Of a stretch of DNA of 64,000 nt, positions 1-64,000 are shown piece by piece. Positions within the stretch are counted from its first letter, which is position 1; each line of letters starts with the position of its first letter. Origin of the DNA: Tupaia tana (Eukaryota > Chordata > Mammalia > Scandentia > Tupaiidae); contig JAKSZU010000167.1 of the NCBI GenBank assembly GCA_026018925.1, positions 124,001 to 188,000 on the forward strand. Reading direction: 5' to 3'. The position numbers were made by a program, and so were the translations under genes. Under the pieces are notes generated by a model, which saw nothing but the letters and a program-made list of their open reading frames with translations, was not told where the DNA came from and did no database searches.

Positions 1-3000
1 CTTCTATCTCTGTCTCTGTGTCTCTGAGTTCTCTGTCTCTCTCTGCTCCTGTCTCCTCATTTTTTTTTCGGTAATTTTTCCTTTTTACGTTTTTTTAAAG
101 GTAACGTTTCTCTCTGACACTGAGCTCCATCTTTTGTTTTGTTAATGATCCCTTCTGCTCCTTTCTCCCAGGCAGGAGAGGTGAACCATTCTCTGGGAAG
201 ATTCCACATGGAGACTGGGAACTAGATATTTCAAGGCAAAGGAGAAATGAAGATTTTCTACTCATAATTCAGCCTCCAGCAAGCAAAGCTAGTGTGGTAG
301 GGAGCCCCTCTGGCCTTCTATCTCTGTCTCTGTGTCTCTGAGGTCTCTGTTTCTCTCTGCTCCTTTCTCCTCATTTTTTTTTCGGTAATTTTTCCTTTAT
401 ACGTTTTTTTAAAGGTAAAGTTTCTCTCTGGCTCTCAGCTCCATCTTTTGTTTTGTTAATGATCGCTTCTGCTCCTTTCTCCCAGGCAGGAGAGGTGAGC
501 CATTCTCTGGGAAGATTCCACATGGAGACTGGGAACTAGATATTTCAAGGTAAAAGAGAAATGAAGATTTTCTACTCATAATTCAGCCTCCAGCAAGCAA
601 AGCTAGTGTTGTGGGGAGCCCCTCTGGCCTTCTATCACTGTCTCTGTGTCTCTGAGTTCTCTGTCTCTCTCTGCTCCTGTCTCCTCATTTTTTTTTTCGG
701 TAATTTTTCCTTTTTACGTTTTTTTAAAGGTAACGTTTCTCTCTGACACTGAGCTCCATCTTTTGTTTTGTTAATGATCCCTTCTGCTCCTTTCTCCCAG
801 GCAGGAGAGGTGAGCCATTCTCTGGGAAGATTCCACATGGAGACTGGGAACTAGATATTTCAAGGCAAAGGAGAAATGAAGATTTTCTACTCATAATTCA
901 GCCTCCAGCAAGCAAAGCTAGTGTGGTAGGGAGCCCCTCTGGCCTTCTATCTCTGTCTCTGTGTCTCTGAGGTCTCTGTCTCTCTCTGCTCCTGTCTCCT
1001 CATTTTTTTTTCGGTAATTTTTCCTTTATACGTTTTTTTAAAGGTAAAGTTTCTCTCTGGCTCTCAGCTCCACCTTTTGTTTTGTTAATGATCGCTTCTG
1101 CTCCTTTCTCCCAGGCAGGAGAGGTGAGCCATTCTCTGGGAAGATTCCACATGGAGACTGGGAACTAGATATTTCAAGGCAAAGGAGAAATGAAGATTTT
1201 CTACTCATAATTCAGCCTCCAGCAAGCAAAGCTAGTGTGGTAGGGAGCCCCTCTGGCCTTCTATCTCTGTCTCTGTGTCTCTGAGGTCTCTTTCTCTCTC
1301 TGCTCCTGTCTCCTCATTTTTTTTTCTGTAATTTTTCCTTTTTCCGTTTTTTTAAAGGTAAACTTTCTCTCTGGCTCTCAGCTCCATCTTTTGTTTTGTT
1401 GATGATCCCTTCTGCTCCTTTCTCCCAGGCAGGAGAGGTGAGCCATTCTCTGGGAAGATTCCACATGGAGACTGGGAACTAGATATTTCAAGGCAAAGGA
1501 GAAATGAAGATTTTCTACTCATAATTCAGCCTCCAGCAAGCAAAGCTAGTGTGGTAGGGAGCCCCTCTGGCCTTCTATCTATGTCTCTGTGTTTCTGAGG
1601 TCTCTGTCTCTCTCTGCTCCTGTCTCCTCATTTTTTTTTCGGTAATTTTTTCTTTTTAGGTTTTTTTAAAGGTAAAGTTTCTCTCTGGCTCTCAGCTCCA
1701 CCTTTTGTTTTGTTAATGATCCCTTCTGCTCCTTTCTCCCAGGCAGGAGAGGTGAGCCATTCTCTAGGAAGATTCCACATGGAGACCGGGAACTAGATAT
1801 TTCAAGGCAAAGGAGAAATGAAGATTTTCTAATCATAATTCAGCCTCCAGCAAGCAAAGCTAGTGTGGTAGGGAGCCCCTCTGGCCTTCTATCTATGTCT
1901 CTGTGTCTCTGAGGTCTCTGTCTCTCTCTGCTCCTGTCTCCTCATTTTTTTTTCGGTAATTTTTCATTTTTACGTTTTTTTAAAGGTAAACTTTCTCTCT
2001 GGCTCTCAGCTCCATCTTTTGTTTTGTTGATGATCCCTACTGCTCCTTTCTCCCAGGCAGGAGAGGTGAGCCATTCTCTGGGAAGATTCCACATGGAGAC
2101 TGGGAACTAGATATTTCAAGGCAAATGAGAAATGAAGATTTTCTACCCATTATTCAGCCTCCAGCAAGCAAAGCTAGTGTGGTAGGGAGCCCCTCTGGCC
2201 TTCTATCTCTGTCTCTGTGTCTCTGAGGTCTCTGTCTCTCTCTGCTCCTGTCTCCTCATTTTTTTTTCGGTAATTTTTCCTTTTTACGTTTTTTTAAAGG
2301 TAAAGTTTCTCTCTGGCTCTCAGCTCCACCTTTTGTTTTGTTAATGATCCCTTCTTCTCCTTTCTCCCAGGCAGGAGAGGTGAGCCATTCTCTGGGAAGA
2401 TTCCACATGGAGACTGGGAACAAGATATTTCAAGGCAAAGGAGAAATGAAGATTTTCTACTCATAATTCAGCCTCCAGCATGCAAAGCTAGTGTGGTAGG
2501 GAGCCCCTCTGGCCTTCTATCTCTGTCTCTGTGTCTCTGAGGTCTCTGTCTCTCTCTGCTCCTGTCTCCTCATTTTTTTTTTTGGTAATTTTTCCTTTTT
2601 ACGTTTTTTTAAAGTTAAAGTTTCTCTCTGGCTCTCAGCTCCGTCTTTTGTTTTGTTAATGATCGCTTCTGCTCCTTTCTCCCAGGAAGGAGAGGTGAGC
2701 CATTCTCTGGGAAGATTCCACATGGAGACTGGGAACTAGATATTTCAAGGCAAAGGAGAAATGAAGATTTTCTACTCATAATTCAGCCTCCAGCAAGCAA
2801 AGCTAGTGTGGCAGGGAGCCCCTCTGGCCTTCTATCACTGTCTCTGTGTCTCTGAGGTCTCTGTCTCTCTCTGCTCCTGTCTCCTCATTTTTTTTTTCGG
2901 TAATTTTTCCTTTTTACGTTTTTTTAAAGGTAAAGTTTCTCTCTGACTCTCAGCTCCATCTTTTGTTTTGTTAATGATCCCTTATTCTCCTTTCTCCCAG

Positions 3001-3143
3001 GCAGGAGAGGTGAGCCATTCTCTGGGAAGATTCCACATGGAGACTGGGAACTAGATATTTCAAGGTAAAAGAGAAATGAAGATTTTCTACTCATAATTCA
3101 GCCTCCAGCAAGCAAAGCTAGTGTTGTGGGGAGCCCCTCTGGC
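1..3143 (+). repeat. Mosaic segment, monomers 1-10
   Basis: Ten monomers with no clean local HOR. Monomers 1 and 3 carry gagttctctg with gacactgag (type A). Monomers 2 and 4 carry tttatacg with gatcgc (type B). Monomer 5 has ctgtaat, aaacttt and gttgatg (type C). Monomer 7 has tttcattttt and ccctactgc (type E). Monomers 8-10 have catgcaaag (F), ctccgtc with ccaggaagg (G), and gactctcag with caaggtaaaag (H). The run E-F-G-H is the run E-O-F-G-H of the alpha 16-mer without monomer O. Monomers 3-5 (629-1571) reappear at 8478-9420. Confidence 0.8.
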
Positions 3144-5341
3144 CTTCTATCTCTGTCTCTGTGTCTCTGAGTTCTCTGTCTCTCTCTGCTCCTGTCTCCT
3201 CATTTTTTTTTTTCGGTAATTTTTCCTTTTTACGTTTTTTTAAAGGTAAAGTTTCTCTCTGACACTGAGCTCCATCTTTTGTTTTGTTAATGATCCCTTC
3301 TGCTCCTTTCTCCCAGGCAGGAGAGGTGAACCATTCTCTGGGAAGATTCCACATGGAGACTGGGAACTAGATATTTCAAGGCAAAGGAGAAATGAAGATT
3401 TTCTACTCATAATTCAGCCTCCAGCAAGCAAAGCTAGTGTGGTAGGGAGCCCCTCTGGCCTTCTATCTCTGTCTCTGTGTCTCTGAGGTCTCTGTCTCTC
3501 TCTGCTCCTGTCTCCTCATTTTTTTTTCGGTAATTTTTCCTTTATACGTTTTTTTAAAGGTAAAGTTTCTCTCTGGCTCTCAGCTCCATCTTTTGTTTTG
3601 TTAATGATCGCTTCTGCTCCTTTCTCCCAGGCAGGAGAGGTGAGCCATTCTCTGGGAAGATTCCACATGGAGACTGGGAACTAGATATTTCAAGGCAAAG
3701 GAGAAATGAAGATTTTCTACTCATAATTCAGCCTCCAGCAAGCAAAGCTAGTGTGGTAGGGAGCCCCTCTGGCCTTCTATCTCTGTCTCTGTGTCTCTGA
3801 GGTCTCTGTCTCTCTCTGCTCCTGTCTCCTCATTTTTTTTTCGGTAATTTTTCATTTTTACGTTTTTTTAAAGGTAAACTTTCTCTCTGGCTCTCAGCTC
3901 CATCTTTTATTTTGTTGATGATCCCTTCTGCTCCTTTCTCCCAGGCAAGAGAGGTGAGACATTCTCTGGGAAGATTCCACATGGAGACTGGGAACTAGAT
4001 ATTTCAAGGCAAAGGAGAAATGAAGATTTTCTACTCATTATTCAGCCTCCAGCAAGCAAAGCTAGTGTGGTAGGGAGCCCCTCTGGCCTTCTATCTCTGT
4101 CTCTGTGTCTCTGAGGTCTCTGTCTCTCTCTGCTCCTGTCTCCTCATTTTTTTTTCGGTAATTTTTCCTTTTTACGTTTTTTAAAAGGTAAAGTTTCTCT
4201 CTGGCTCTCAGCTCCATCTTTTGTTTTGTTAATGATCACTTCTGCTATTTTCTCCCAGGCAGGAGAGGTGAGCCATTCTCTGGGAAGATTCCACATGGAG
4301 ACTGGGAACTAGATATTTCAAGGCAAAGGACACATGAAGATTTTCTACTAATAATTCAGCCTCCAGAAAGCAAAGCTAGTGTGGTAGGGAGCCCCTCTGG
4401 CATTCTATCTCTGTCTCTGTGTCTCTGAGGTCTCTGTCTCTCTCTGCTCCTGTCTCCTCATTTTTTTTCAGTAATTTTTCCTTTTTACGTTTTTTTAAAG
4501 GTATAGTTTCTCTCGGGCTCTCAGCTCCATCTTTTGTTTTGTTAATGATCCCTTCTGCTCCTTTCTCTCAGGCAGGAGAGGTGAGCCATGCTCTGGGAAG
4601 ATTCCACATGGAGACTGGGAACTAGATATTTCAAGGCAAAGGAGAAATGAAGATTTTCTACTCATAATTCAGACTCCAGCATGCAAAGCTAGTGTGGTAG
4701 GGAGCCCCTCTGGGCTTCTATTGCTGTCTCTGTGTCTCTGAGGTCTCTGTCTCTCTCTGCTCCTGTCTCCTCATTTTTTTTTCGGTAATTTTTCTTTTTA
4801 CGTTTTTTTAAAGGTAAAGTTTCTCTCTTTCTCTCAGCTCCATCTTTTGTTTTCTTAATGATCGCTTCTGCTCCTTTCTCCCATGCAGGAGAGGTGAGCC
4901 ATTCTCTGGGAAGATTCCACATGGAGACTGGGAACTAGATATTTCAAGGCAAAGGAGAAATGAAGATTTTCTACTCATAATTCAGCCTCCAGCAAGCAAA
5001 GCTTGTGTGGTAGGGAGCCCCTCTGTCCTTCTATCTCTGTCTCTGTGTCTCTGAGGTCTCTGTCTCTCTCTGCTCCTGTCTCCTCATTTTTTTTTCGGTA
5101 ATTTTTCCTTTTTACGTTTTTTTAAAGGTAAAGATTCTCTCTGGCTCTCAGCTCAATCTTTTGTTTTGTTAATGATCCTTTCTGCTCCTTTCTCCCAGGC
5201 AGGAGAGGTGAGCCATTCTCTGGGAAGATTCCACATGGAGACTGGGAACTAGATATTTCAAGGTAAAAGAGAAATGAAGATTTTCTACTCATAATTCAGC
5301 CTCCAGCAAGCAAAGCTAGTGTTGTGGGGAGCCCCTCTGGC
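3144..5341 (+). repeat. 7-mer HOR, copy 1 (2198 bp)
   Basis: Seven monomers, in order: A (gagttctctg, gacactgag, gtgaacc), B (tttatacg, gatcgc), E2 (tttcattttt, ttttattttgttg, gagacatt), I (ttttttaaaagg, tgctattttc, aaaggacacatg), J (tctctcgggc, gccatgctctgg, cagactccag), L (tattgctg, cttaatgatcgc, cccatgcagg) and a hybrid seventh monomer (gctcaatc and gatccttt in its first part, caaggtaaaag and gttgtgg at its end). The same order follows immediately in copy 2. Few differences separate the copies, for example gatcac versus gatccc near 4228 and ggtata versus ggtaaa near 4501. Confidence 0.9.
5028..5341 (+). repeat. Chimeric monomer, M-type start with H-type end
   Basis: The first part has the M-type marks (aaagattctc, gctcaatc, gatccttt), as at 7224, 12028 and 17055. 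The end has the H-type marks (caaggtaaaag and gttgtgg), as at 3061-3130 and 9654-9720. The M mark gagagctgag is absent and gagaggtgag is present, so the switch lies between about 5176 and 5262. The next monomer is type A, which also follows H elsewhere (2829-3144, 9421 onward). A crossover between an M and an H monomer would produce the 7-mer period seen here. Confidence 0.75.
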
Positions 5342-7537
5342 CTTCTATCTCTGTCTCTGTGTCTCTGAGTTCTCTGTCTCTCTCTGCTCCTGTCTCCTCA
5401 TTTTTTTTTTTCGGTAATTTTTCCTTTTTACGTTTTTTTAAAGGTAAAGTTTCTCTCTGACACTGAGCTCCATCTTTTGTTTTGTTAATGATCCCTTCTG
5501 CTCCTTTCTCCCAGGCAGGAGAGGTGAACCATTCTCTGGGAAGATTCCACATGGAGACTGGGAACTAGATATTTCAAGGCAAAGGAGAAATGAAGATTTT
5601 CTACTCATAATTCAGCCTCCAGCAAGCAAAGCTAGTGTGGTAGGGAGCCCCTCTGGCCTTCTATCTCTGTCTCTGTGTCTCTGAGGTCTCTGTCTCTCTC
5701 TGCTCCTGTCTCCTCATTTTTTTTTCGGTAATTTTTCCTTTATACGTTTTTTTAAAGGTAAAGTTTCTCTCTGGCTCTCAGCTCCATCTTTTGTTTTGTT
5801 AATGATCGCTTCTGCTCCTTTCTCCCAGGCAGGAGAGGTGAGCCATTCTCTGGGAAGATTCCACATGGAGACTGGGAACTAGATATTTCAAGGCAAAGGA
5901 GAAATGAAGATTTTCTACTCATAATTCAGCCTCCAGCAAGCAAAGCTAGTGTGGTAGGGAGCCCCTCTGGCCTTCTATCTCTGTCTCTGTGTCTCTGAGG
6001 TCTCTGTCTCTCTCTGCTCCTGTCTCCTCATTTTTTTTTCGGTAATTTTTCATTTTTACGTTTTTTTAAAGGTAAACTTTCTCTCTGGCTCTCAGCTCCA
6101 TCTTTTATTTTGTTGATGATCCCTTCTGCTCCTTTCTCCCAGGCAGGAGAGGTGAGACATTCTCTGGGAAGATTCCACATGGAGACTGGGAACTAGATAT
6201 TTCAAGGCAAAGGAGAAATGAAGATTTTCTACTCATTATTCAGCCTCCAGCAAGCAAAGCTAGTGTGGTAGGGAGCCCCTCTGGCCTTCTATCTCTGTCT
6301 CTGTGTCTCTGAGGTCTCTGTCTCTCTCTGCTCCTGTCTCCTCATTTTTTTTTCGGTAATTTTTCCTTTTTACGTTTTTTAAAAGGTAAAGTTTCTCTCT
6401 GGCTCTCAGCTCCATCTTTTGTTTTGTTAATGATCCCTTCTGCTATTTTCTCCCAGGCAGGAGAGGTGAGCCATTCTCTGGGAAGATTCCACATGGAGAC
6501 TGGGAACTAGATATTTCAAGGCAAAGGACACATGAAGATTTTCTACTAATAATTCAGCCTCCAGAAAGCAAAGCTAGTGTGGTAGGGAGCCCCTCTGGCA
6601 TTCTATCTCTGTCTCTGTGTCTCTGAGGTCTCTGTCTCTCTCTGCTCCTGTCTCCTCATTTTTTTTCAGTAATTTTTCCTTTTTACGTTTTTTTAAAGGT
6701 AAAGTTTCTCTCGGGCTCTCAGCTCCATCTTTTGTTTTGTTAATGATCCCTTCTGCTCCTTTCTCTCAGGCAGGAGAGGTGAGCCATGCTCTGGGAAGAT
6801 TCCACATGGAGACTGGGAACTAGATATTTCAAGGCAAAGGAGAAATGAAGATTTTCTACTCATAATTCAGACTCCAGCATGCAAAGCTAGTGTGGTAGGG
6901 AGCCCCTCTGGCCTTCTATTGCTGTCTCTGTGTCTCTGAGGTCTCTGTCTCTCTCTGCTCCTGTCTCCTCATTTTTTTTTCGGAAATTTTTCTTTTTACG
7001 TTTTTTTAAAGGAAAAGTTTCTCTCTTTCTCTCAGCTCCATCCTTTGTTTTCTTAATGATCGCTTCTGCTCCTTTCTCCCATGCAGGAGAGGTGAGCCAT
7101 TCTCTGGGAAGATTCCACATGGAGACTGGGAACTAGATATTTCAAGGCAAAGGAGAAATGAAGATTTTCTACTCATAATTCAGCCTCCAGCAAGCAAAGC
7201 TTGTGTGGTAGGGAGCCCCTCTGTCCTTCTATCTTTGTCTCTGTGTCTCTGAGGTCTCTGTCTCTCTGCTCCTGTCTCCTCATTTTTTTTTCGGTAATTT
7301 TTCCTTTTTACGTTTTTTTAAAGGTAAAGATTCTCTCTGGCTCTCAGCTCAATCTTTTGTTTTGTTAATGATCCTTTCTGCTCCTTTCTCCCAGGCAGGA
7401 GAGCTGAGCCATTCTCTGGGAAGATTCCACATGGAGACTGGGAACTAGATATTTCAAGGCAAAGGAGAAATGAAGATTTTCTACTCATAATTCAGCCTCC
7501 AGCAAGCAAAGCTAGTGTGGTAGGGAGCCCCTCTGGC
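5342..7537 (+). repeat. 7-mer HOR, copy 2 (2196 bp)
   Basis: The second copy of the A-B-E2-I-J-L-M heptamer, offset by 2198 bp from copy 1. Its last monomer (7224-7537 region) is a complete M type with gagagctgag and a normal caaggcaaagg end. It has lost one CT step near 7266, which makes the copy 2 bp shorter. The L monomer here has private changes (cggaaattttt near 6982 and ggaaaag near 7012). Copy 2 leads into an N monomer (7538), the order used in the later 16-mers, so this is where the heptamer joins the larger HOR. Confidence 0.9.
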
Positions 7538-10500
7538 CTTCTATCTCTGTCTCTGTGTCTCTGAGGTCTCTGTCTCTCTCTGCTCCTGTCTCCTCATTTT
7601 TTTTCAGTAATTTTTCTTTTTTAGGTTTTTTTAAAGGTAAAGTTTCTCTCTGCCTCTCAGCTCCATCTTTTGTTTTGTTGATGATCCCTTCTGCTCCTTT
7701 CTCTCAGGCAGGAGAGGTGAGCCATTCTCTGGGAAGATTCCACATGGAGACTGGGAACTATATATTTCAAGGCAAAGGAGAAATGAAGATTTTCTACTCA
7801 TAATTCAGCCTCCAGCAAGCAAAGCTAGTGTGGTAGGGAGCCCCTCTGGCCTTCTATCTCTGTCTCTGTGTCTCTGAGGTCTCTGTCTCTCTCTGCTCCT
7901 GTCTCCTCATTTTTTTTTCGGTAATTTTTCATTTTTACGTTTTTTTAAAGGTAAACTTTCTCTCTGGCTCTCAGCTCCATCTTTTGTTTTGTTGATGATC
8001 CCTTCTGCTCCTTTCTCCCAGGCAGGAGAGGTGAGCCATTCTCTGGGAAGATTCCACATGGAGACTGGGAACTAGATATTTCAAGGCAAAGGAGAAATGA
8101 AGATTTTCTACCCATTATTCAGCCTCCAGCAAGCAAAGCTAGTGTGGTAGGGAGCCCCTCTGGCCTTCTATCTCTGTCTCTGTGTCTCTGAGGTCTCTGT
8201 CTCTCTCTGCTCCTGGCTCCTCATTTTTTTTTCGGTAATTTTTCCTTTTCACGTTTTTTAAAGGTAAAGTTTCTCTCTGGCTCTCAGCTCCATCTTTTGT
8301 TTTGTGAATGATCCCTTCTGCTCCTTTCTCCCAGGCAGGAGAGGTGAGCCATTCTCTGGGAAGATTCCACATGGAGACTGGGAACTAGATATTTCAAGGG
8401 AAAGGAGAAATGAAGATTTTCTACTCATAATTCAGCCTCCAGCAAGCAAAGCTAGTGTTGTGGGGAGCCCCTCTGGCCTTCTATCACTGTCTCTGTGTCT
8501 CTGAGTTCTCTGTCTCTCTCTGCTCCTGTCTCCTCATTTTTTTTTTCGGTAATTTTTCCTTTTTACGTTTTTTTAAAGGTAACGTTTCTCTCTGACACTG
8601 AGCTCCATCTTTTGTTTTGTTAATGATCCCTTCTGCTCCTTTCTCCCAGGCAGGAGAGGTGAGCCATTCTCTGGGAAGATTCCACATGGAGACTGGGAAC
8701 TAGATATTTCAAGGCAAAGGAGAAATGAAGATTTTCTACTCATAATTCAGCCTCCAGCAAGCAAAGCTAGTGTGGTAGGGAGCCCCTCTGGCCTTCTATC
8801 TCTGTCTCTGTGTCTCTGAGGTCTCTGTCTCTCTCTGCTCCTGTCTCCTCATTTTTTTTTCGGTAATTTTTCCTTTATACGTTTTTTTAAAGGTAAAGTT
8901 TCTCTCTGGCTCTCAGCTCCACCTTTTGTTTTGTTAATGATCGCTTCTGCTCCTTTCTCCCAGGCAGGAGAGGTGAGCCATTCTCTGGGAAGATTCCACA
9001 TGGAGACTGGGAACTAGATATTTCAAGGCAAAGGAGAAATGAAGATTTTCTACTCATAATTCAGCCTCCAGCAAGCAAAGCTAGTGTGGTAGGGAGCCCC
9101 TCTGGCCTTCTATCTCTGTCTCTGTGTCTCTGAGGTCTCTTTCTCTCTCTGCTCCTGTCTCCTCATTTTTTTTTCTGTAATTTTTCCTTTTTACGTTTTT
9201 TTAAAGGTAAACTTTCTCTCTGGCTCTCAGCTCCATCTTTTGTTTTGTTGATGATCCCTTCTGCTCCTTTCTCCCAGGCAGGAGAGGTGAGCCATTCTCT
9301 GGGAAGATTCCACATGGAGACTGGGAACTAGATATTTCAAGGCAAAGGAGAAATGAAGATTTTCTACTCATAATTCAGCCTCCAGCAAGCAAAGCTAGTG
9401 TGGCAGGGAGCCCCTCTGGCCTTCTATCACTGTCTCTGTGTCTCTGAGGTCTCTGTCTCTCTCTGCTCCTGTCTCCTCATTTTTTTTTTCGGTAATTTTT
9501 CCTTTTTACGTTTTTTTAAAGGTAAAGTTTCTCTCTGACTCTCAGCTCCATCTTTTGTTTTGTTAATGATCCCTTCTTCTCCTTTCTCCCAGGCAGGAGA
9601 GGTGAGCCATTCTCTGGGAAGATTCCACATGGAGACTGGGAACTAGATATTTCAAGGTAAAAGAGAAATGAAGATTTTCTACTCATAATTCAGCCTCCAG
9701 CAAGCAAAGCTAGTGTTGTGGGGAGCCCCTCTGGCCTTCTATCTCTGTCTCTGTGTCTCTGAGTTCTCTGTCTCTCTCTGCTCCTGTCTCCTCATTTTTT
9801 TTTCGGTAATTTTTCCTTTTTACGTTTTTTTAAAGGTAAAGTTTCTCTCTGACACTGAGCTCCATCTTTTGTTTTGTTAATGATCCCTTCTGCTCCTTTC
9901 TCCCAGGCAGGAGAGGTGAACCATTCTCTGGGAAGATTCCACATGGAGACTGGGAACTAGATATTTCAAGGCAAAGGAGAAATGAAGATTTTCTACTCAT
10001 AATTCAGCCTCCAGCAAGCAAAGCTAGTGTGGTAGGGAGCCCCTCTGGCCTTCTATCTCTGTCTCTGTGTCTCTGAGGTCTCTGTCTCTCTCTGCTCCTG
10101 TCTCCTCATTTTTTTTTCGGTAATTTGTCCTTTATACGTTTTTTTAAAGGTAAAGTTTCTCTCTGGCTCTCAGCTCCATCTTTTGTTTTGTTAATGATCG
10201 CTTCTGCTCCTTTCTCCCAGGCAGGAGAGGTGAGCCATTCTCTGGGAAGATTCCACATGGAGACTGGGAACTAGATATTTCAAGGCAAAGGAGAAATGAA
10301 GATTTTCTACTCATAATTCAGCCTCCAGCAAGCAAAGCTAGTGTGGTAGGGAGCCCCTCTGGCCTTCTATCTCTGTCTCTGTGTCTCTGAGGTCTCTGTC
10401 TCTCTCTGCTCCTGTCTCCTCATTTTTTTTTCGGTAATTTTTCATTTTTACGTTTTTTTAAAGGTAAACTTTCTCTCTGGCTCTCAGCTCCATCTTTTAT

Positions 10501-10991
10501 TTTGTTGATGATCCCTTCTGCTCCTTTCTCCCAGGCAGGAGAGGTGAGACATTCTCTGGGAAGATTCCACATGGAGACTGGGAACTAGATATTTCAAGGC
10601 AAAGGAGAAATGAAGATTTTCTACTCATTATTCAGCCTCCAGCAAGCAAAGCTAGTGTGGTAGGGAGCCCCTCTGGCCTTCTATCACTTTCTCTGTGTCT
10701 CTGAGGTCTCTGTCTCTCTCTGCTCCTGTCTCCTCATTTTTTTTTCGGTAATTTTTCCTTTTCACGTTTTTTTAAAGGTAAAGTTTCTCTCTGGCTCTCA
10801 GCTCCACCTTTTATTTTGTTAATGATCCCTTCTTCTCCTTTCTCCCAGGCAGGAGAGGTGAGTCATTCTCTGGGAAGATTCCACATGGAGACTGGGAACT
10901 AGATATTTCAAGGCAAAGGAGAAATGAAGATTTTCTACTCATAATTCAGCCTCCAGCAAGCAAAGCTAGTGTGGTAGGGAGCCCCTCTGGC
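7538..10991 (+). repeat. Mosaic segment, monomers 25-35
   Basis: Eleven monomers linking the 7-mer to the 32-mer. The order is N (7538; T8 then cagtaat, ctgcctctcag), E, O (cttttcacg), then A-B-C (8478-9420, repeating 629-1571 almost exactly), then H-A-B-E2 (9421-10677, repeating 2829-4087), then P (10678; tatcacttt, cttttcacg, gtgagtcatt). The segment is built from blocks present elsewhere in the window, so it looks like a product of several unequal exchanges and not a separate family. Confidence 0.8.
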
Positions 10992-54800: not shown

Positions 54801-55589
54801 TTCTGCTCCTTTCTCCCAGGCAGGAGAGGTGAGCCATTCTCTGGGAAGTTTCCACATGGAGACTGGGAACTAGATATTTCAAGGCAAAGAGAAATGAAGA
54901 TTTTCTACTCATAAATCAGCCTCCAGCAAGCAAAGCTAGAGTGTTAGGGAGCACCTCTGGCCTTCTATCTCTGTCTCTGTGTCTCTGAGGTCTCTGTCTC
55001 TCTCTGCTCCTGTCTCCTCATTTTTTTTTCGGTATTTTTTCCTTTTTACGTTTCTTTAAAGGTAAACTTTCTCTCTGGCTCTCAGCTCCATCTTTTGTTT
55101 TGTTAATGATCCCTTCTGCCCCTTTCTCCCAGGCAGGAGAGGTGAGCCATTCTCTGGGAAGATTCCACATGGAGACTGGGAACTAGATATTTCAAGGCAA
55201 AGGAGAAATGAAGATTTTCTACTCATAATTCAGCCTCCAGCAAGCAAAGCTAGTGTGGTAGGGAGCCCCTCTGGCCTTCTATCTCTGTCTCTGTGTCTCT
55301 GAGTTCTCTGTCTCTCTCTGCTCCTGTCTCCTCATTTTTTTTTCGGTATTTTTTCCTTTTTACGTTTCTTTAAAGGTAAACTTTCTCTCTGGCTCTCAGC
55401 TCCATCTTTTGATTTGTTAATGATCCCTTCTGCTCCTTTCTCCCAGGCAGGAGAGGTGAGCCATTCTCTGGGAAGATTCCACATGGAGACTGGGAACTAG
55501 ATATTTCAAGGCAAAGGAGAAATGAAGATTTTCTACTCATAATTCAGCCTCCAGCAAGCAAAGCTAGTGTGGTAGGGAGCCCCTCTGGC
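51821..55589 (+). repeat. 12-mer HOR, copy 2 (3769 bp)
   Basis: The same order as 48050-51820 at an offset of 3771 bp, with very few differences. The first monomer has acgttttt where copy 1 has acctttt, and the aaagataaag monomer has tcttcctttttttt with ctgtaat and ttattgatccc (54.7 kb). The rare catctcttg is shared by the first monomer of both copies (48179 and 51950), a mark of recent duplication. Confidence 0.9.
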
Positions 55590-56842
55590 CTTCTATCTCT
55601 GTCTCTGTGTCTCTGACGTCTCTGTCTCTCTCTGCTCCTGTCTCCTCATTTTTTTTTCGGTAATTTTTCCTTTTTACGTTTTTTTAAAGGTAAAGTTTCT
55701 CTCTGGCTCTCAGCTCCATCTTTTGTTTTGTTAATGATCCCTTCTTCTCCTTTCTCCCAGGCAGGAGAGGTGAGCCATTCTCGGGAAGATTCCACATGGA
55801 GACTGGGAACTAGATATTTCAAGGTAAAGGAGAAATGAAGATTTTCTACTCATAATTCAGCCTCCAGCAAGCAAAGCTAGTGTGGTAGGGAGCCCCTCTG
55901 GCCTTCTATCTCTGTCTCTGTGTCTCTGAGGTCTCTGTCTCTCTCTGCTCCTGTCTCCTCATTTTTTTTTCGGTAATTTTTCCTTTTTACGTTTTTTTAA
56001 AGGTAAAGTTTCTCTCTGGCTCTCAGCTCCATCTTTTGTTTTGTTAATGATCCCTTCTGCTCCTTTCTCCCAGGCAGGAGAGGTGAGCCATTCTCTGGGA
56101 AGATTCCACATGGAGACTGGGAACTAGATATTTCAAGGCAAAGGAGAAATGAAGATTTTCTACTCATAATTCAGCCTCCAGCAAGCAAAGCTAGTGTGGT
56201 AGGGAGCCCCTCTTGCCTTCTATCTCTGTCTCTGTGTCTCTGAGGTCTCTGTCTCTCTCTGCTCCTGTCTCCTCATTTTTTTTTCGGTAATTTTTCCTTT
56301 TTACGTTTTTTTAAAGGTAAAGTTTCTCTCTGGCTCTCAGCTCCACCTTTTGTTTTGTTAATGATCCCTTCTTCTCCTTTCTCCCAGGCAGGAGAGGTGA
56401 GCCATTCTCTGGGAAGATTCCACATGGAGACTGGGAACTAGATATTACAAGGCAAAGGAGAAATGAAGATTTTCTACTCATAATTCAGCCTCCAGCAAGC
56501 AAAGCTAGTGTGGTAGGGAGCCCCTCTGGCCTTCTATCTCTGTCTCTTTGTCTCTGAGGTCTCTGTCTCTCTCTGCTCCTGTCTCCTCATTTTTTTTTGG
56601 TAATTTTTCCTTTTTACGTTTTTTTAAATGTAAAGTTTCTCTCTGGCTCTCAGCTCCATCTTTTGTTTTGTTAATGATCCCTTCTGCTCCTTTCTCCCAG
56701 GCAGGAGAGGTGAGCCATTCTCTGGGAAGATTCCACATGGAGACTGGGAACTAGATATTTCAAGGCAAAGGAGAAATGAAGATCTTCTACACATAATTCA
56801 GCCTCCAGCAAGCAAAGCTAGTGTGGTAGCAGCCCCTCTGGC
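55590..56842 (+). repeat. Four monomers between the 12-mer and 4-mer blocks
   Basis: Monomers 178-181: one with gacgtctctg, a 2-bp loss giving tctcgggaag, and caaggtaaagg; one nearly identical to the apparent consensus; one with tcttgcc, ctccacc and gatattacaagg; and one with ctctttgtctc, tttggtaat, aaatgtaaag, gatcttctacacat and gtagcagcccc. The first two recur at 63.13 and 63.44 kb. Confidence 0.8.
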
Positions 56843-58099
56843 CTTCTATCTCTGTCTCTGTGTCTCTGAGGTCTCTGTCTCTCTCTGCTCCTGTCTCGTC
56901 ATTTTTTTTTCGGTAATTTTTGCTTTTTACGTTTTTTTAAAGGTAAAGTTTCTCTCTGGCTCTCAGCTCCACCTTTTGTTTTGTTAATTATCCCTTCTTC
57001 TCCTTTCTCCCAGGAAGGAGAGGTGAGCCATTCTCTGGGAAGATTCCACATGGAGACTGGGAACTAGATATTTCAAGGCAAAGGAGAAATGAAGATTTTC
57101 TACTCATAATTCAGCCTCCAGCAAGCAAAGCTAGTGTGGTAGGGAGCCCCTCTGGCCTTCTATCTCTGTCTCTGTGTCTCTGAGGTCTCTGTCTCTCTCT
57201 GCTCCTGTCTCCTCATTTTTTTTTCGGTAATTTTTCCTTTTTACGTTTTTTTAAATGTAAAGATTCTCTCTGGCTCTCACCTCCATCTTTTGTATTGTTA
57301 ATGATCCCTTCTGCTCCTTTCTCCCAGGCAGGAGAGGTGAGCCATTCTCTGGGAAGATTACACATGGAGACTGGGAACTAGATATTTCAAGGCAAAGGAG
57401 AAATGAAGATTTTCTACTCATAATTCAGCCTCCAGCACGCAAAGGTAGTGTGGTAGGGAGCCCCTCTGGCCTTCTATCTCTGTCTCTGTGTCTCTGAGGT
57501 CTCTGTCTCTCTCTGCTCCTGTCTCCTCATTTTTTTTTCGGTAATTTTTCCTTTTTACGTTTTTTTAAAGGTAAAGTTTCTCTCTGGCTCTCAGCTCCAT
57601 CTTTTGTTTTGTTAATGATCCCTTCTTCTCCTTTCTCCCAGGCAGGAGAGGTGAGCCATTCTCTGGGAAGATTCCACATGGAGACTGGGAACTAGATATT
57701 TCAAGGCAAAGGAGAAATGAAGATTTTCTACTCATAATTCAGCCTCCAGCAAGCAAAGCTAGTGTGGTAGGGAGCCCCTCTGGCCTTCTATCTCTGTCTC
57801 TGTGTCTCTGAGGTCTCTGTCTCTCTCTGCTCCTGTCTCCTCATTTTTTTTTTCGGTAATTTTTCCTTTTTACGTTATTTTAAAGGTGAAGTTTCTCTCT
57901 GGCTCTCAGCTCCACCTTTTGATTTGTTAATGATCACTTCAGCTCCTTTCTCCCAGGCAGGAGAGGTGAGCCATTCTCTGGGAAGATTCCACATGGAGAC
58001 TGGGAACTAGGTATTTCAAGGAAAAGGAGAAATGAAGATCTTCTACACATAATTCAGCCCCCAGCAAGCAAAGCTAGTGTGGTAGGGAGCCCCTCTGGC
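56843..58099 (+). repeat. 4-mer HOR, copy 1 (1257 bp)
   Basis: Four monomers: ctccacc with ttaattatccc; aaatgtaaagattc with ctcacctcc and tgtattgtt, ending aaaggtag; a cttcttctcc monomer; and ttattttaaaggtgaag with gatcacttcagc. Copy 2 follows directly with exactly the same length. The marks ttaattatccc and aaaggtgaag are seen only in these two copies. Private marks of this copy are ccaggaagg (57.0 kb) and ctaggtatttcaaggaaaagg (58.0 kb). Confidence 0.88.
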
Positions 58100-59356
58100 C
58101 TTCTATCTCTGTCTCTGTGTCTCTGAGGTCTCTGTCTCTCTCTGCTCCTGTCTCATCATTTTTTTTCGGTAATTTTTCCTTTTTACGTTTTTTTAAAGGT
58201 AAAGTTTCTCTCTGGCTCTCAGCTCCACCTTTTGTTTTGTTAATTATCCCTTCTTCTCCTTTCTCCCAGGCAGGAGAGGTGAGCCATTCTCTGGGAAGAT
58301 TCCACATGGAGACTGGGAACTAGATATTTCAAGGCAAAGGAGAAATGAAGAATTTCTACTCATAATTCAGCCTCCAGCAAGCAAAGCTAGTGTGGTAGGG
58401 AGCCCCTCTGGCCTTCTATCTCTGTCTCTGTGTCTCTGAGGTCTCTGTCTCTCTCTGCTCCTGTCTCCTCATTTTTTTTTCGGTAATTTTTCCTTTTTAC
58501 GTTTTTTTAAATGTAAAGATTCTCTCTGGCTCTCACCTCCATCTTTTGTATTGTTGATGATCCCTTCTGCTCCTTTCTCCCAGGCAGGAGAGGTGAGCCA
58601 TTCTCTGGGAAGATTCCACATGGAGACTGGGAACTAGATATTTCAAGGCAAAGGAGAAATGAAGATTTTCTACTCATAATTCAGCCTCCAGCAAGCAAAG
58701 GTAGTGTGGTAGGGAGCCCCTCTGGCCTTCTATCTCTGTCTCTGTGTCTCTGAGGTCTCTTTCTCTCTCTGCTCCTGTCTCCTCATTTTTTTTTTCGGTA
58801 ATTTTTCCTTTTTACGTTTTTTTAAAGGTAAAGTTTCTCTCTGGCTCTCAGCTCCATCTTTTGTTTTGTTAATGATCCCTTCTTCTCCTTTCTCCCAGGC
58901 AGGAGAGGTGAGCCATTCTCTGGGAAGATTACACATGGAGACTGGGAACTAGATATTTCAAGGCAAAGGAGAAATGAAGATTTTCTACTCATAATTCAGC
59001 CTCCAGCAAGCAAAGCTAGTGTGGTAGGGAGCCCCTCTGGCCTTCTTTCTCTGTCTCTGTGTCTCTGAGGTCTCTGTCTCTCTCTGCTCCTGTCTCCTCA
59101 TTTTTTTTTTCGGTAATTTTTCCTTTTTACGTTATTTTAAAGGTGAAGTTTCTCTCTGGCTCTCAGCTCCACCTTTTGATTTGTTAATGATCACTTCAGC
59201 TCCTTTCTCCCAGGCAGGAGAGGTGAGCCATTCTCTGGGAAGATTCCACATGGAGACTGGGAACTAGATATTTCAAGGCAAAGGAGAAATGTAGATTTTC
59301 TACTCATAATTCAGCCTCCAGCAAGCAAAGCTAGTGTGGTAGGGAGCCCCTCTGGC
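58100..59356 (+). repeat. 4-mer HOR, copy 2 (1257 bp)
   Basis: It repeats 56843-58099 in order and length. Differences include tctcatcatt near 58151, tgtattgttgatg near 58547, cttctttctc near 59042 and atgtagatt near 59290. The mark gattacacatgg sits on the third monomer here but on the second in copy 1, so short patches have moved between neighbouring monomers, as gene conversion would do. Confidence 0.85.
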
Positions 59357-60613
59357 CTTCTATCTCTGTCTCTGTGTCTCTGAGGTCTCTGTCTGTCTCT
59401 GCTCCTGTCTCCTCATTTTTTTTTTTCGGTAATTTTTCCTTTTTACGTTTTTTTAAAGATAAAGTTTCTCTCTGGCTCTCACCTCCATCTTTTGTTTTCT
59501 TAATGATCCCTTCTGCTCCTTTCTCCCAGGCAGGAGAGGTGAGCCATTCTCTGGGAAGTTTCCACATGGAGACTGGGAACTAGATATTTCAAGGTAAAGG
59601 AGAAATGAAGATTTTCTACTCATAATTCAGCCTCCAGCAAGCAAAGCTAGTGTGGTAGGGAGCCCCTCTGGCCTTCTAACTCTGTCTCTGTGTCTCTGAG
59701 TTCTCTGTCTCTCTCTGCTCCTGTCTCCTCATTTTTTTTTTCGGTAATTTTTCCTTTTTACCTTTTTTTAAAGGTAAAGTTTCTCTCTGACACTCAGCTC
59801 CATCTTTTCTTTTGTTAATGATCACTTCTGCTCCTTTCACCCAGGCAGGAGAGGTGAACCATTCTCTGGGAAGATTCCACATGGAGACTGGGAACTAGAT
59901 ATTTCAAGGCAAAGGAGAAATGAAGATTTTCTACTCATAATTCAGCCTCCAGCAAGCAAAGCTAGTGTGGTAAGGAGCCCCTCTGGCCTTCTATCTCTGT
60001 CTCTGTGTCTCTGAGGTCTCTGTCTCTCTCTGCTCCTGTCTCTTCATTTCTTTTTCGGTAATTTTTCCTTTTTACCTTTTTTTAAAGGTAAAGTTTCTCT
60101 CTGGCTCTCAGCTCCATCTTTTGTTTTGTTAATGATCGCTTCTGCTCCTTTCTCCCAGGCAGGAGAGGTGAGCCATTCTCTGGGAAGTTTCCACATGGAG
60201 ACTGGGAACTAGATATTTCAAGGCAAAGGGGAAATGATGATTTTCTACTCATAATTCAGCCTCCAGCAAGCAAAGCTAGTGTGGTAGGGAGCCCCTCTGG
60301 CCTTCTATCTCTGTCTCTGTGTCTCTGAGGTCTCTGTCTCTCTCTGCTCCTGTCTCCTCATTTTTTTTTCGGTAATTTTTCCTTTTTACGTTTTTTTAAA
60401 GGTAAACTTTCTCTCTGGCTCTCAGCTCCATCTTTTGTTTTGTTGATGATCCCTTCTGCTCCTTTCTCCCAGGCAGGAGAGGTGAGCCATTCTTGGAAGA
60501 TTCCACATGGAGACTGGGAACTAGATATTTCAAGGCAAAGGAGAAATGAAGATTTTCTACTCATTTTTCAGCCTCCAGCAAGCAAAGCTAGTGTGGTAGG
60601 GAGCCCCTCTGGC
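59357..60613 (+). repeat. Chimeric monomer followed by a returned A-B-C-like trimer
   Basis: Monomer 59357-59672 has aaagataaag and ctcacctcc (the type at 50882 and 54624) but ends in caaggtaaagg, the type that precedes the gacactcag monomer elsewhere. The next three are the gacactcag/tcacccagg/gtgaacc, tttacctttt/gatcgc/ggggaaatg and aaactttc/gttgatg monomers, matching 37687-38630, 43027-43969 and 47735-48677. The third has a 2-bp loss (attcttggaag near 60493) and is followed by the ttattttaaagg monomer, skipping two monomers that follow it in the 12-mer. Confidence 0.8.
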
Positions 60614-63444
60614 CTTCTATCTCTGTCTCTGTGTCTCTGAGGTCTCTGTCTCTCTCTGCTCCTGTCTCCTCATTTTTTTTTCGGTAATTTTTCCTTTTTA
60701 CGTTATTTTAAAGGTAAAGTTTCTCTCTGGCTCTCAGCTCCACCTTTTGATTTGTTAATGATCACTTCAGCTCCTTTCTCCCAGGCAGGAGAGGTGAGCC
60801 ATTCTCTGGGAAGATTCCACATGGAGACTGGGAACTAGATATTTCAAGGCAAAGGAGAAATGAAGATTTTCTACTCATAATTCAGCCTCCAGCAAGCAAA
60901 GCTAGTGTGGTAGGGAGCCCCTCTGGCCTTCTATCTCTGTCTCTGTGTCTCTGAGGTCTCTGTCTGTCTCTGCTCCTGTCTCCTCATTTTTTTTTTCGGT
61001 AATTTTTCCTTTTTACGTTTTTTTAAAGGTAAAGTTTCTCTCTGGCTCTCAGCTCCATCTTTTGTTTTGTTAATGATCCCTTCTTCTCCTTTCTCCCAGG
61101 CAGGAGAGGTGAGCCATTCTCTGGGAAGATTCCACATGGAGACTGGGAACTAGATATTACAAGGCAAAGGAGAAATGAAGATTTTCTACTCATAATTCAG
61201 CCTCCAGCAAGCAAAGCTAGTGTGGTAGGGAGCCCCTCTGGCCTTCTATCTCTGTCTCTGTGTCTCTGAGGTCTCTGTGTCTCTCTGCTCCTGTCTCCTC
61301 ATTTTTTTTTTCGGTAATTTTTCCTTTTTACGTTTTTTTAAAGGTAAAGTTTCTCTCTGGCTCTCAGCTCCATCTTTTGTTTTGTTAATGATCCCTTCTT
61401 CTCCATTCTCCCAGGCAGGAGAGGTGAGCCATTCTCTGGGAAGATTACACATGGAGACTGGGAACTAGATATTTCAAGGCCAAGGAGAAATGAAGATTTT
61501 CTACTCATAATTCAGCCTCCAGGAAGCAAAACTAGTGTGGTAGGGAGCCCCTCTGGCCTTCTATCTCTGTCTCTGTGTCTCTGAGGTCTCTGTCTCTCTC
61601 TGCTCCTGTCTCCTCATTTTTTTTTCGGTAATTTTTCCTTTTTACGTTATTTTAAAGGTAAAGTTTCTCTCTGGCTCTCAGCTCCACCTTTTGATTTGTT
61701 AATGATCCCTTCTGCTCCTTTCTCCCAGGCAGGAGAGGTGAGCCATTCTCTGGGAAGATTCCACATGGAGACAGGGAACTAGATATTTCAAGGCAAAGGA
61801 GAAATGAAGATTTTCTACTCATAATTCAGCCTCCAGGAAGCAAAGGTAGTGTGGTAGGGAGCCCCTCTGGCCTTCTATCTCTGTCTCTGTGTCTCTGAGG
61901 TCTCTGTATGTCTCTGCTCCTGTCTCCTCATTTTTTTTTCGGTAATTTTTCCTTTTTACGTTTTTTTAAAGGTAAAGTTTCTCTCTGGCTCTCAGCTCCA
62001 TCTTTTGTTTTGTTAATGATCCCTTCTTCTCCATTCTCCCAGGCAGGAGAGGTGAGCCATTCTCTGGGAAGATTCCACATGGAGACTGGGAACTAGATAT
62101 TTCAAGGCAAAGGAGAAATGAATATTTTCTACTCATAATTCAGCCTCCAGCAAGCAAAGCTAGTGTGGTAGGGAGCCCCTCTGGCCTTCTATCTCTGTCT
62201 CTGTGTCTCTGAGGTCTCTGTCTCTCTCTGCTCCTGTCTCTTCCTTTTTTTTTCTGTAATTTTTCCTTTTTACGTTTTTTTAAAGATAAAGTTTCTCTCT
62301 GGCTCTCACCTCCATCTTTTGTTTTGTTAATGATCCCTTCTGCTCCTTTCTCCCAGGCAGGAGAGGTGAGCCATTCTCTGGGAAGATTCCACATGGAGAC
62401 TGGGAACTAGATATTTCAAGGCAAAGAGAAATGAAGATTTTCTACTCATAAATCAGCCTCCAGCAAGCAAAGCTAGAGTGTTAGGGAGCACCTCTGGCCT
62501 TCTATCTCTGTCTCTGTGTCTCTGAGGTCTCTGTCTCTCTCTGCTCCTGTCTCCTCATTTTTTTTCGGTATTTTTTCCTTTTTACGTTTCTTTAAAGGTA
62601 AACTTTCTCTCTGGCTCTCAGCTCCATCTTTTGTTTTGTTAATGATCCCTTCTGCCCCTTTCTCCCAGGCAGGAGAGGTGAGCCATTCTCTGGGAAGATT
62701 CCACATGGAGACTGGGAACTAGATATTTCAAGGCAAAGGAGAAATGAAGATTTTCTACTCATAATTCAGCCTCCAGCAAGCAAAGCTAGTGTGGTAGGGA
62801 GCCCCTCTGGCCTTCTATCTCTGTCTCTGTGTCTCTGAGTTCTCTGTCTCTCTCTGCTCCTGTCTCCTCATTTTTTTTTCGGTATTTTTTTCTTTTTACG
62901 TTTCTTTAAAGGTAAACTTTCTCTCTGGCTCTCAGCTCCATCTTTTGATTTGTTAATGATCCCTTCTGCTCCTTTCTGCCAGGCAGGAGAGGTGAGCCAT
63001 TCTCTGGGAAGATTCCACATGGAGACTGGGAACTAGATATTTCAAGGCAAAGGAGAAATGAAGATTTTCTACTCATAATTCAGCCTCCAGCAAGCAAAGC
63101 TAGTGTGGTAGGGAGCCCCTCTGGCCTTCTATCTCTGTCTCTGTGTCTCTGACGTCTCTGTCTCTCTCTGCTCCTGTCTCCTCATTTTTTTTTCGGTAAT
63201 TTTTCCTTTTTACGTTTTTTTAAAGGTAAAGTTTCTCTCTGGCTCTCAGCTCCATCTTTTGTTTTGTTAATGATCCCTTCTTCTCCTTTCTCCCAGGCAG
63301 GAGAGGTGAGCCATTCTCTGGGAAGATTCCACATGGAGACTGGGAACTAGATATTTCAAGGTAAAGGAGAAATGAAGATTTTCTACTCATAATTCAGCCT
63401 CCAGCAAACAAAGCTAGTGTGGTAGGGAGCCCCTCTGGCCTTCT

Positions 63445-63495
63445 ATCTCTGTCTCTGTGTCTCTGAGGTCTCTGTCTCTCTCTGCTCCTGTCTCC
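63445..63495 (+). repeat. CT/CTGT-rich simple segment inside each monomer
   Basis: About 50 bases made almost only of CTCTGT and CTCTCT steps open each monomer, with the strand complement GA/GACA-rich. The segment is present in every monomer with few substitutions (gaggtc versus gagttc, tatctatg, tatcactg, tattgctg), so it is part of the satellite unit and not an independent microsatellite. Small changes of repeat number occur, for example loss of one CT step near 7260. On a + strand transcript it would be rich in CUCU and UCUCU elements of the kind bound by PTB-family proteins. That role is inferred only. Confidence 0.85.
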
Positions 63496-63498
63496 TCA

Positions 63499-63535
63499 TT
63501 TTTTTTTCGGTAATTTTTCCTTTTTACGTTTTTTT
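63499..63535 (+). other. T-run cluster with the monomer's only two CpGs
   Basis: Four T-runs lie close together (T9 at 63499-63507, T5 at 63514-63518, T5 at 63521-63525, T7 at 63529-63535) with centres 7-13 bp apart, roughly one helical turn on average. The two CpGs of the monomer sit between them, at 63508-63509 and 63527-63528. The first T-run is the most length-variable point of the monomer: 7 T near 17646 and 27699, 12 T near 38690. The region may be intrinsically bent and nucleosome-positioning, which is inference from the A/T-tract spacing. No CENP-B box pattern (TTCG, then A, then CGGG at the right spacing) is present. Confidence 0.7.
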
Positions 63536-63580
63536 AAAGGTAAAGTTTCTCTCTGGCTCTCAGCTCCATCTTTTGTTTTG

Positions 63581-63625
63581 TTAATGATCCCTTCTGCTCC
63601 TTTCTCCCAGGCAGGAGAGGTGAGC
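63581..63625 (+). other. Splice-like acceptor, 9-base gap and donor
   Basis: On the + strand the order is ttaat at 63581-63585 (fits the mammalian branch-point pattern yUnAy, branch A 26 bases before the acceptor G), a pyrimidine tract, the acceptor-like ctttctcccag ending at 63610, nine bases gcaggagag (63611-63619), and gtgagc from 63620, which with the preceding GAG is close to the U1 donor consensus. The arrangement recurs in most monomers. Variants that break it exist: the donor becomes ctgagc near 7403, 12112, 17139, 22161 and 27192, gttgagc near 49487 and 53258, and ggggtgagc near 13051. Whether the array is transcribed or spliced is unknown. The resemblance may be fortuitous or inherited from a genic ancestor. 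Confidence 0.55.
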
Positions 63626-64000
63626 CATTCTCTGGGAAGATTCCACATGGAGACTGGGAACTAGATATTTCAAGGCAAAGGAGAAATGAAGATTTTCTAC
63701 TCATAATTCAGCCTCCAGCAAGCAAAGGTAGTGTGGTAGGGAGCCCCTCTGGCCTTCTATCTCTGTCTCTGTGTCTCTGAGGTCTCTGTCTCTCTCTGCT
63801 CCTGTCTCCTCATTTTTTTTTTCGGTAATTTTTCCTTTTTACCTTTTTTTAAAGGTAAAGTTTCTCTCTGGCTCTCAGCTCCATCTTTTGTTTTGTTAAT
63901 GATCCCTTCTTCTCCTTTCTCCCAGGCAGGAGAGGTGAGCCATTCTCTGGGAAGATTACACATGGAGACTGGGAACTAGATATTTCAAGGCAAAGGAGAA

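Follow-up and report, generated by a model that had tools for sequence, protein, structure and literature searches.

What gives rise to a long satellite array, and what do the long-range periods within it record? These questions are raised by a 64,000-nucleotide stretch of the tree shrew Tupaia tana (the window; C272:124001-188000), which consists of 314-bp satellite monomers. Contig C272 is 415 kb long and belongs to a 2.95-Gb assembly of 1198 contigs. A beta-globin cluster in this assembly (C231:26911477-26929986) served to place it among the mammals, and its adult beta chain, read from HBB exons, is similar to that of tree shrews; no conclusion below depends on this. An earlier note on the window described successive higher-order repeat (HOR) periods and missed the probable LINE-1 (L1) origin of the monomer. 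In the reading preferred here, to which we give a probability of about 0.68, a unit of the L1 5' untranslated region (5'UTR) together with a 189-bp intron-like segment seeded the array, and the periods are scattered two-copy duplications. Dispersed L1s carry the same 5'UTR units, and the array starts with an L1 5' end on six contigs. To judge from these sequences, the LINE-1 5'UTR, or promoter region, appears to have been turned into bulk satellite DNA. The HOR part of the finding matters less than this origin.

The monomer and its LINE-1 counterpart

All features of the window lie on the + strand, and their coordinates are window positions. Each monomer is made up of a 125-bp part, the L1 5'UTR unit, and a 189-bp intron-like segment.

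1..64000, + strand: uninterrupted head-to-tail array of 314-bp satellite monomers (203.8 copies by Tandem Repeats Finder, and anchors)
297..485, + strand: first complete 189-bp intron-like segment, with a GT start and an AG end; it recurs in successive monomers
486..610, + strand: first complete 125-bp part (L1 5'UTR unit); the end, 486 plus 124, was checked by eye

Across the whole 64 kb there are 204 anchors, every step between them measuring 309-317 bp. Tandem Repeats Finder reports a period of 314 bp and 203.8 copies with 96% matches. The 203 complete monomers of the window differ from one another at 11.6 sites on average. A longer stretch of the contig (C272:1-250000) contains 796 anchors without a break and with steps of 309-318 bp only, which is the long, unbroken array of a single unit that defines satellite DNA. 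The window contains 175 exact GTGTGGTAGGG donors and 168 exact TTTCTCCCAGG acceptors. The chief site of indels in the monomer is a T-run at phases 157-158, which varies in length. An Rfam scan of window positions 1-3000 gives two sub-threshold lncRNA matches only. Viral contigs contain no exact match to one 20-mer of the array, and phages no match to 1.3 kb of it.

At the far end of contig C272, a 359-bp satellite meets the 314-bp array. The 359-bp satellite ends in AAAACGTACTTTGA, which is followed by GATTCTCTGGG, and this junction is identical on all six contigs where it occurs. A genome-wide search with a 25-mer across the junction, allowing at most one mismatch, finds those six contigs and no others. 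Downstream of the junction, all six carry units of 109, 125 and 125 bp and then 189-plus-125 units. The dispersed L1s read with their 5' end (5/5) start at GATTCTCTG and have unrelated flanks. The edge of the array is thus an L1 end at 6/6 junctions. The L1 allele CAGGGC is present in 11 of the 12 first and second junction units, and the third unit has CAAGGC in 6/6. In 250 kb of array there are no copies of ATTTCAGGGC, compared with 701 of ATTTCAAGGC. Seen from its one side, AAAACGTACTTTGA would fit a copy of a target-site duplication. The junction itself seems to have been copied between loci.

The 359-bp satellite on C272 (L030:1-6411; C272:405343-411753) is distinct from the 314-bp satellite and, by eye, resembles a dimer of ~180-bp halves. 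Matches to it are also listed on C278, C435, C1052, C308 and C586. Five of the six junction copies (L043-L047) have CACGAAATAACC adjoining the junction, and the copy on C272 (L030) has CACGAAAGTAAGC. The junctions on C308, C293, C529 and C278 have a further rearrangement of the 359-bp flank in common. On C308, a contig of 46.7 Mb, a founder junction is found 18 kb in from the contig start, which is the sole hint of a centromeric placement.

The search with the 359/314 junction also matched dispersed places on very large contigs. Loci L040, L041 and L042 have two, two and one units, respectively, that are 97-98% identical to the satellite and are followed by an L1 body. Downstream of the units, each has an open ORF1 start beginning MGKRENTSPP. 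In a structure search with L042, the one locus tested, the frame (184 residues, cut by the locus end) matches a solved LINE-1 ORF1p (E 6.8e-12). Pfam searches with two partial ORF1 frames gave sub-cut-off coiled-coil matches only.

Five places match a pattern in which the final bases of the 189-bp segment immediately precede the last unit, and three of them were read (L048-L050). The whole segment is present in L048 and L050, and L049 contains only its last part. In L048 and L050 a unit step of 125 bp precedes one of 315 or 314 bp, after which comes the L1 body; the arrangement is 125-(189/190)-125. These two loci are 95.7% identical to the satellite consensus over 442 bp and 95.9% over 441 bp. 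The monomer is thus homologous to L1 sequence outside the array at L048 and L050, and the ORF1p match comes from a third locus.

Genome-wide there are 301 exact copies of the sequence that joins the last unit to the L1 body. Multi-megabase contigs carry 98 of the 100 copies listed, with both strands represented. None of these 100 matches, which are ordered by contig and pass C272, falls on C272 itself. The last unit of L042 (592-715, on C309) is longer by nine bases (GCAGGAGAG), which adjoin the L1 body; it measures 119 bp, compared with 110 bp in L040, L048 and L050. The join between unit and body therefore varies.

The proposed course of events has three steps and a continuing process. A full-length L1 would have inserted into an older 359-bp satellite array. 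Its 189-bp segment, lying between two 125-bp direct repeats, would have let unequal exchange multiply the 314-bp unit, and the 314-bp array would then have spread between loci. Ongoing in-register unequal exchange with short conversion would produce scattered duplications of 7, 16, 32, 17, 15 and 12 monomers.

The intron-like segment and the direction of descent

The 189-bp segment starts with GTAGGG and ends with TTTCTCCCAG, a pyrimidine tract plus CAG. The A of a consensus TTAAT lies 27 nt before the next exon base. Removal of the segment leaves GTGTG-GCAGGAG, which is the join between 125-bp L1 units. The 125-125 form therefore differs from the 125-(189/190)-125 form by the exact loss of a GT-AG segment, as a spliced integrated L1 (SpIRE) does from an unspliced L1. 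The segment may once have been spliced, yielding the 125-125 join.

A 48-mer with L048-type alleles has 3,226 exact copies genome-wide, of which 100 are listed. These were counted by eye, with eight places on C28, which belong to an array, and single copies set aside. Among the matches listed, there are 32 dispersed groups of at least two copies; five have a 314- or 315-bp step and 27 do not, and one group has an unassigned step of 561 bp. In 5/5 mixed L1 groups the 314/315-bp step is the 3'-most one listed. Because of this constant position, the groups suggest one L1 lineage with the 189-bp segment in the last slot and not repeated partial splicing. The C28 copies of the 48-mer show steps of 436-439, 874-878 and 314 bp.

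The same position is compatible with a second account, in which the 189-bp segment is an insertion into one 125-bp L1 unit and the GT-AG ends are coincidental. Splicing of the segment is itself a proposal made from DNA sequence, which also counts in favour of this account. The GT start, the pyrimidine tract, the CAG end, the TTAAT at 27 nt and the 125-125 join restored on removal all argue against it, and we regard an insertion as doubtful.

Related sequence occurs in large numbers genome-wide. There are 10,090 exact copies of GGGAACTAGATATTTCAAGG and 232,439 of CTCCCAGGCAGGAGAGTTGAGCC, a 23-mer spanning the boundary between segment and unit; the latter shows ~313-bp steps in C2 and C3 among the matches listed. 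If every CTCCCAGGCAGGAGAGTTGAGCC copy sits in such a unit, this signature count extrapolates to ~73 Mb of large satellite. With no more than 3,226 exact copies of the 48-mer in the genome, most of the large satellite differs in sequence from the L048-type L1. The 125-125 join has 32,162 exact copies.

The 125-125 join also occurs in other tandem arrangements. In C22, among the first 56 kb listed, the steps between joins are ~436 and 124 bp. The C22 array is probably built of 125+125+186 units, which would make it a further satellite assembled from modules of this L1 5'UTR. In C7 the steps between joins are 134 bp.

The abundance of the large satellite bears on a third account, in which the satellite came first. 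Transcripts of the 314-bp array would have read into an L1, the 189-nt segments would have been spliced out, and the chimeric RNA would have given the L1 its 5'UTR of 125-bp units. At a later stage, L1 copies would have landed in 359-bp arrays and become landing pads for 314-bp arrays. The 232,439 copies of the large-satellite 23-mer (with its ~313-bp steps in C2 and C3), compared with 301 L1 joins, favour this order, and splicing of a 314-314 template would yield a 125-125 join. Replacement of L1 5'UTRs by way of chimeric RNAs is also proposed and discussed in PMC13174262 (this paper and those cited below are used in excerpt). Against a satellite-first origin, the array begins at an L1 5' end, where L1-type alleles give way to satellite alleles. 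In addition, the 314-bp step is last in 5/5 L1 groups listed, which suggests one L1 lineage. We consider this order of events less likely than seeding by an L1.

A broader proposal would join the two directions. The bulk satellite, tens of megabases by signature, and the LINE-1 promoter region may be one sequence in two forms, between which transcription, splicing and retrotransposition pass sequence. The 314-bp satellite unit would comprise the exon with its intron, and the L1 would carry the spliced form (125-bp repeats). This proposal is tentative.

Several points weigh against an array seeded by an L1 5'UTR unit. Since the larger satellite shares the boundary 23-mer CTCCCAGGCAGGAGAGTTGAGCC, the L1 5'UTR could be the younger of the two sequences. 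The remainder of the founding L1 and the second target-site copy are as yet a prediction for the far boundary of the 314-bp array (somewhere in C272:260001-310305). Of five splice-signal positions, only the acceptor A (795/795) is more strongly conserved than the bulk of the segment; across the five positions there is no consistent excess of conservation in the array (fractions of more-variable columns 0.28, 0.53, 0.32, 0.89 and 0.43). Finally, four runs of an equilibrium unequal-exchange simulation give 778 to 8,732 related segments, compared with 65 observed in C272:1-250000 at a score of at least 18 (0 in one shuffle). The simulated mean monomer differences are 4.0-9.7, compared with 11.3 observed. 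This simple simulation does not fit, and the exchange model is therefore qualitative only.

Relation to known systems

To our knowledge, the birth of a satellite is rarely seen and the founding element is usually erased. In the present case six contigs still show the L1 5' end where the array begins, and the matching unit survives in dispersed L1s. The origin of the satellite is directly testable because both persist. Mouse L1 5'UTRs carry tandem monomers, which resemble the present L1s in having repeated 5'UTR units and differ from them in unit length and sequence. We know of no satellite counterpart of the mouse monomers. If the splicing reading is true, it shows in concrete terms how L1s could acquire 5'UTRs from the transcripts of a satellite, or how L1 promoters could give rise to satellites. 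A literature search, with limited coverage of subscription journals, found no report of a 314-bp/359-bp satellite, of tree-shrew satellites or of a satellite derived from an L1 5'UTR.

Satellites from transposons, L1 included, are already known; none in the excerpts of PMC9659126 and PMC6947457 used here comes from an L1 5'UTR. The L1-related mammalian satellites include the common cetacean satellite, PROsat of Phodopus roborovskii and Pvc20 of Phoca vitulina (PMC9659126), and the cetacean and Phodopus cases are also listed in PMC6947457. Like the present array, these are mammalian satellites containing LINE-1 sequence. They derive from the L1 3'UTR or ORF2, whereas the present array is built of a 5'UTR unit plus an intron-like segment, and its edge is still marked by the L1 5' end. 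The plant cases include PisTR-A in pea, from Ogre 3'UTR tandem repeats, and CRM1TR in maize, from UTR/LTR sequence; ENSAT1 in Arabidopsis, from the 5'UTR of an En/Spm-like DNA element, is the one plainly 5'UTR source in the excerpt used (PMC9659126). These plant satellites also arose from untranslated parts of mobile elements, but from plant LTR or DNA elements and not from a mammalian L1.

SpIREs are known in human (PMC5860796). Like the shorter L1s described here, they are copies without a GT-AG segment of the 5'UTR. SpIREs are reported to be evolutionary dead ends in general (PMC5860796), whereas the shorter form is the commoner one here (27 of the 32 dispersed groups listed are without a 314-bp step). 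Unlike in SpIREs, the longer form of the present L1s matches a satellite.

Block duplications in the window and along the contig

The earlier note had reported that rare variants recur at fixed offsets. Recurrence of rare 24-mers confirms this at 2198, 5021-5031, 10050, 5340/5342, 4708, 3771 and 7536 bp. The five top-ranking offsets are 4708, 5342, 5340, 3771 and 2198 bp, in that order, and 5021-5031, 10050-10052 and 7536 bp also rank high. Offsets that had not been named (2827, 628, 629 and 314 bp) rank above or near 7536 bp. In comparisons of monomer against monomer, the best real diagonal segment scores 165 and the best of 20 order-shuffled controls scores 15. The base-level segments bear out the claim of several separate amplification events with visible joints.

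2987-5036 to 5185-7234 (span 2987..7234), + strand: 7-monomer tandem duplication, 3.4 substitutions/kb
10140-13502 to 15166-18527, + strand: 16-monomer spacing, ~10 of 16 monomers in common
10140..28579, + strand: four cassettes of ~10 shared monomers each, 16 monomers apart, from monomer diagonals
10555-20677 to 20604-30728 (span 10555..30728), + strand: 32-monomer (10.05 kb) tandem duplication, 6 substitutions in 10.1 kb
33349-38600 to 38691-43939 (span 33349..43939), + strand: 17-monomer tandem duplication, 1.3 substitutions/kb
40358-44779 to 45066-49487 (span 40358..49487), + strand: 15-monomer tandem duplication overlapping the 17-monomer one, 2.3 substitutions/kb
48139-51952 (two pieces) to 51910-55721 (span 48139..55721), + strand: 12-monomer tandem duplication with one patch of seven differences
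53116-56190 to 60651-63727 (span 53116..63727), + strand: older, partial 24-monomer similarity of ~9-10 monomers, 6.8 substitutions/kb

The duplications are in register and keep the monomer phase. The ratio of diagonal length to lag is 0.93-1.01 for the periods of 7, 32, 17, 15 and 12 monomers and 0.67 for 16. With diagonals that match the lag in length, the first five are single two-copy tandem duplications, and the description of the periods as HOR periods does not hold for most of them. Nor does 24 stand as a tandem period, since only ~9-10 of 24 monomers match, at 6.8 substitutions/kb. The proposed nested period of 4 has no lag-4 segment called at base level; monomers 182-184 differ from 186-188 at 3, 4 and 1 sites, a similarity that would score 10, within the shuffle noise. 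Neighbouring periods had been said to overlap, which they do for 17/15, 15/12 and 12/24 but not for 7 against 16/32 or 32 against 17. A lag-15 link of 5.6 monomers (6158-7908 to 10864-12617) ties the 7-monomer duplication to the 16/32 block. The 32-monomer duplication ends near 30.7 kb and the 17-monomer one starts at 33.3 kb, without overlap.

True HOR domains, with each period amplified in turn along the array, would consist of units in many near-identical copies under one dominant period. Near-identical multi-monomer units do exist: a partial cassette is present in four places, 16 monomers apart, and one 20-monomer unit outside the window has three copies. In the window, however, the periods of 7, 32, 17, 15 and 12 have two copies each, with diagonals close to the lag in length. 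Over 250 kb there are 12 periods among 17 tandem-type events, and divergence has no clear relation to position. True HOR domains have a very small probability on this evidence. Human alpha-satellite HORs, including "cascading" HORs (PMC11050224, PMC11276891), are likewise multi-monomer units in a satellite. The present array differs from them in having no dominant unit, mostly two copies per unit and monomers that are ~96% identical. Offsets between rare variants in a satellite can thus mimic an HOR series, though most of them represent one tandem duplication each.

The divergence between copies is 3.41 substitutions/kb for the 7-monomer event, 1.19 for 16, 0.59 for 32, 1.33 for 17, 2.26 for 15, 0.79 for 12 and 6.82 for 24. 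It is heterogeneous across the seven events (p about 1e-10; without 24, p 0.0096). The events had been described as recorded in order along the array, but divergence is not correlated with position (Spearman 0.18, p 0.70, n=7). Only a coarse age ranking is firm, because several pairs do not differ significantly (32 and 17, p 0.15; 32 and 16, p 0.28; 7 and 24, p 0.12; 12 and 15, p 0.10). Two relative ages follow from nesting. The 16-monomer spacing is older than the 32-monomer duplication because two of the four cassettes lie inside the 32-monomer unit, and the 24-monomer link predates the 12-monomer duplication because both 12-monomer copies share it (lags 24 and 36). The block shared in three copies by the 17- and 15-monomer duplications cannot order these two events (14 variable sites; copies 1, 2 and 3 are the odd one at 6, 4 and 4).

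The figure for the 12-monomer duplication omits divergent stretches, including the patch in which monomers 162 and 174 differ at seven columns. Monomer 174 differs from monomers 242 and 262 at one site each. Since 174 matches other copies, monomer 162 is probably the changed one, perhaps through conversion.

An assembly artefact, with the period changes as joins or false duplications, is highly improbable. C272 is a 415-kb piece with satellite at both ends. Indel columns make up 18 of the 24 differences in the 32-monomer pair, and those that vary most in the monomer fall in the T-run; slippage or sequencing error may account for these. These points favour an artefact, but the copies differ by 3 to 21 substitutions per event and the monomer phase is unbroken through 250 kb.

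The window had been presented as a special record of successive events. In C272:1-250000, tandem-type diagonals (length at least 0.6 of the lag and more than 900 bp) make up 17 of 132 merged diagonals. They have 12 different periods of 5 to 32 monomers and cover 52% of the monomers. Only six of the 17 start in the window, and the window is not special in its duplication pattern because the same patchwork fills the 250 kb analysed. The closest to a true HOR in the 250 kb is a 20-monomer unit with three near-identical copies (C272:27413 to about 46300).

Unequal crossing over and conversion are a standard route of concerted evolution (PMC8122249). For 51 variable sites in 201 mutually distinct monomers, the median r-squared is near the level of independence in every distance bin but the last, which has three pairs; the means are higher than the medians, and some site pairs are strongly linked. 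The allele correlation between neighbouring monomers is -0.02 at lag 1, and the value of 0.09 at lag 20 is put down to the 20-monomer unit. Because the median r-squared is near independence and neighbouring alleles are uncorrelated, the variants are well mixed, as frequent short exchange would give, and recent block duplications are superimposed on this background.

The idea of a hotspot of recombination within the monomer was rejected, since 31 start and 31 end edges agree with the matched null (p 0.78 and 0.30). The duplication edges cluster at phases 256 and 157, which adjoin the two most variable sites. In C272:1-250000, the intron-like part varies more than the 125-bp part, with a mean substitution heterozygosity of 0.038 compared with 0.023 (p 0.04).

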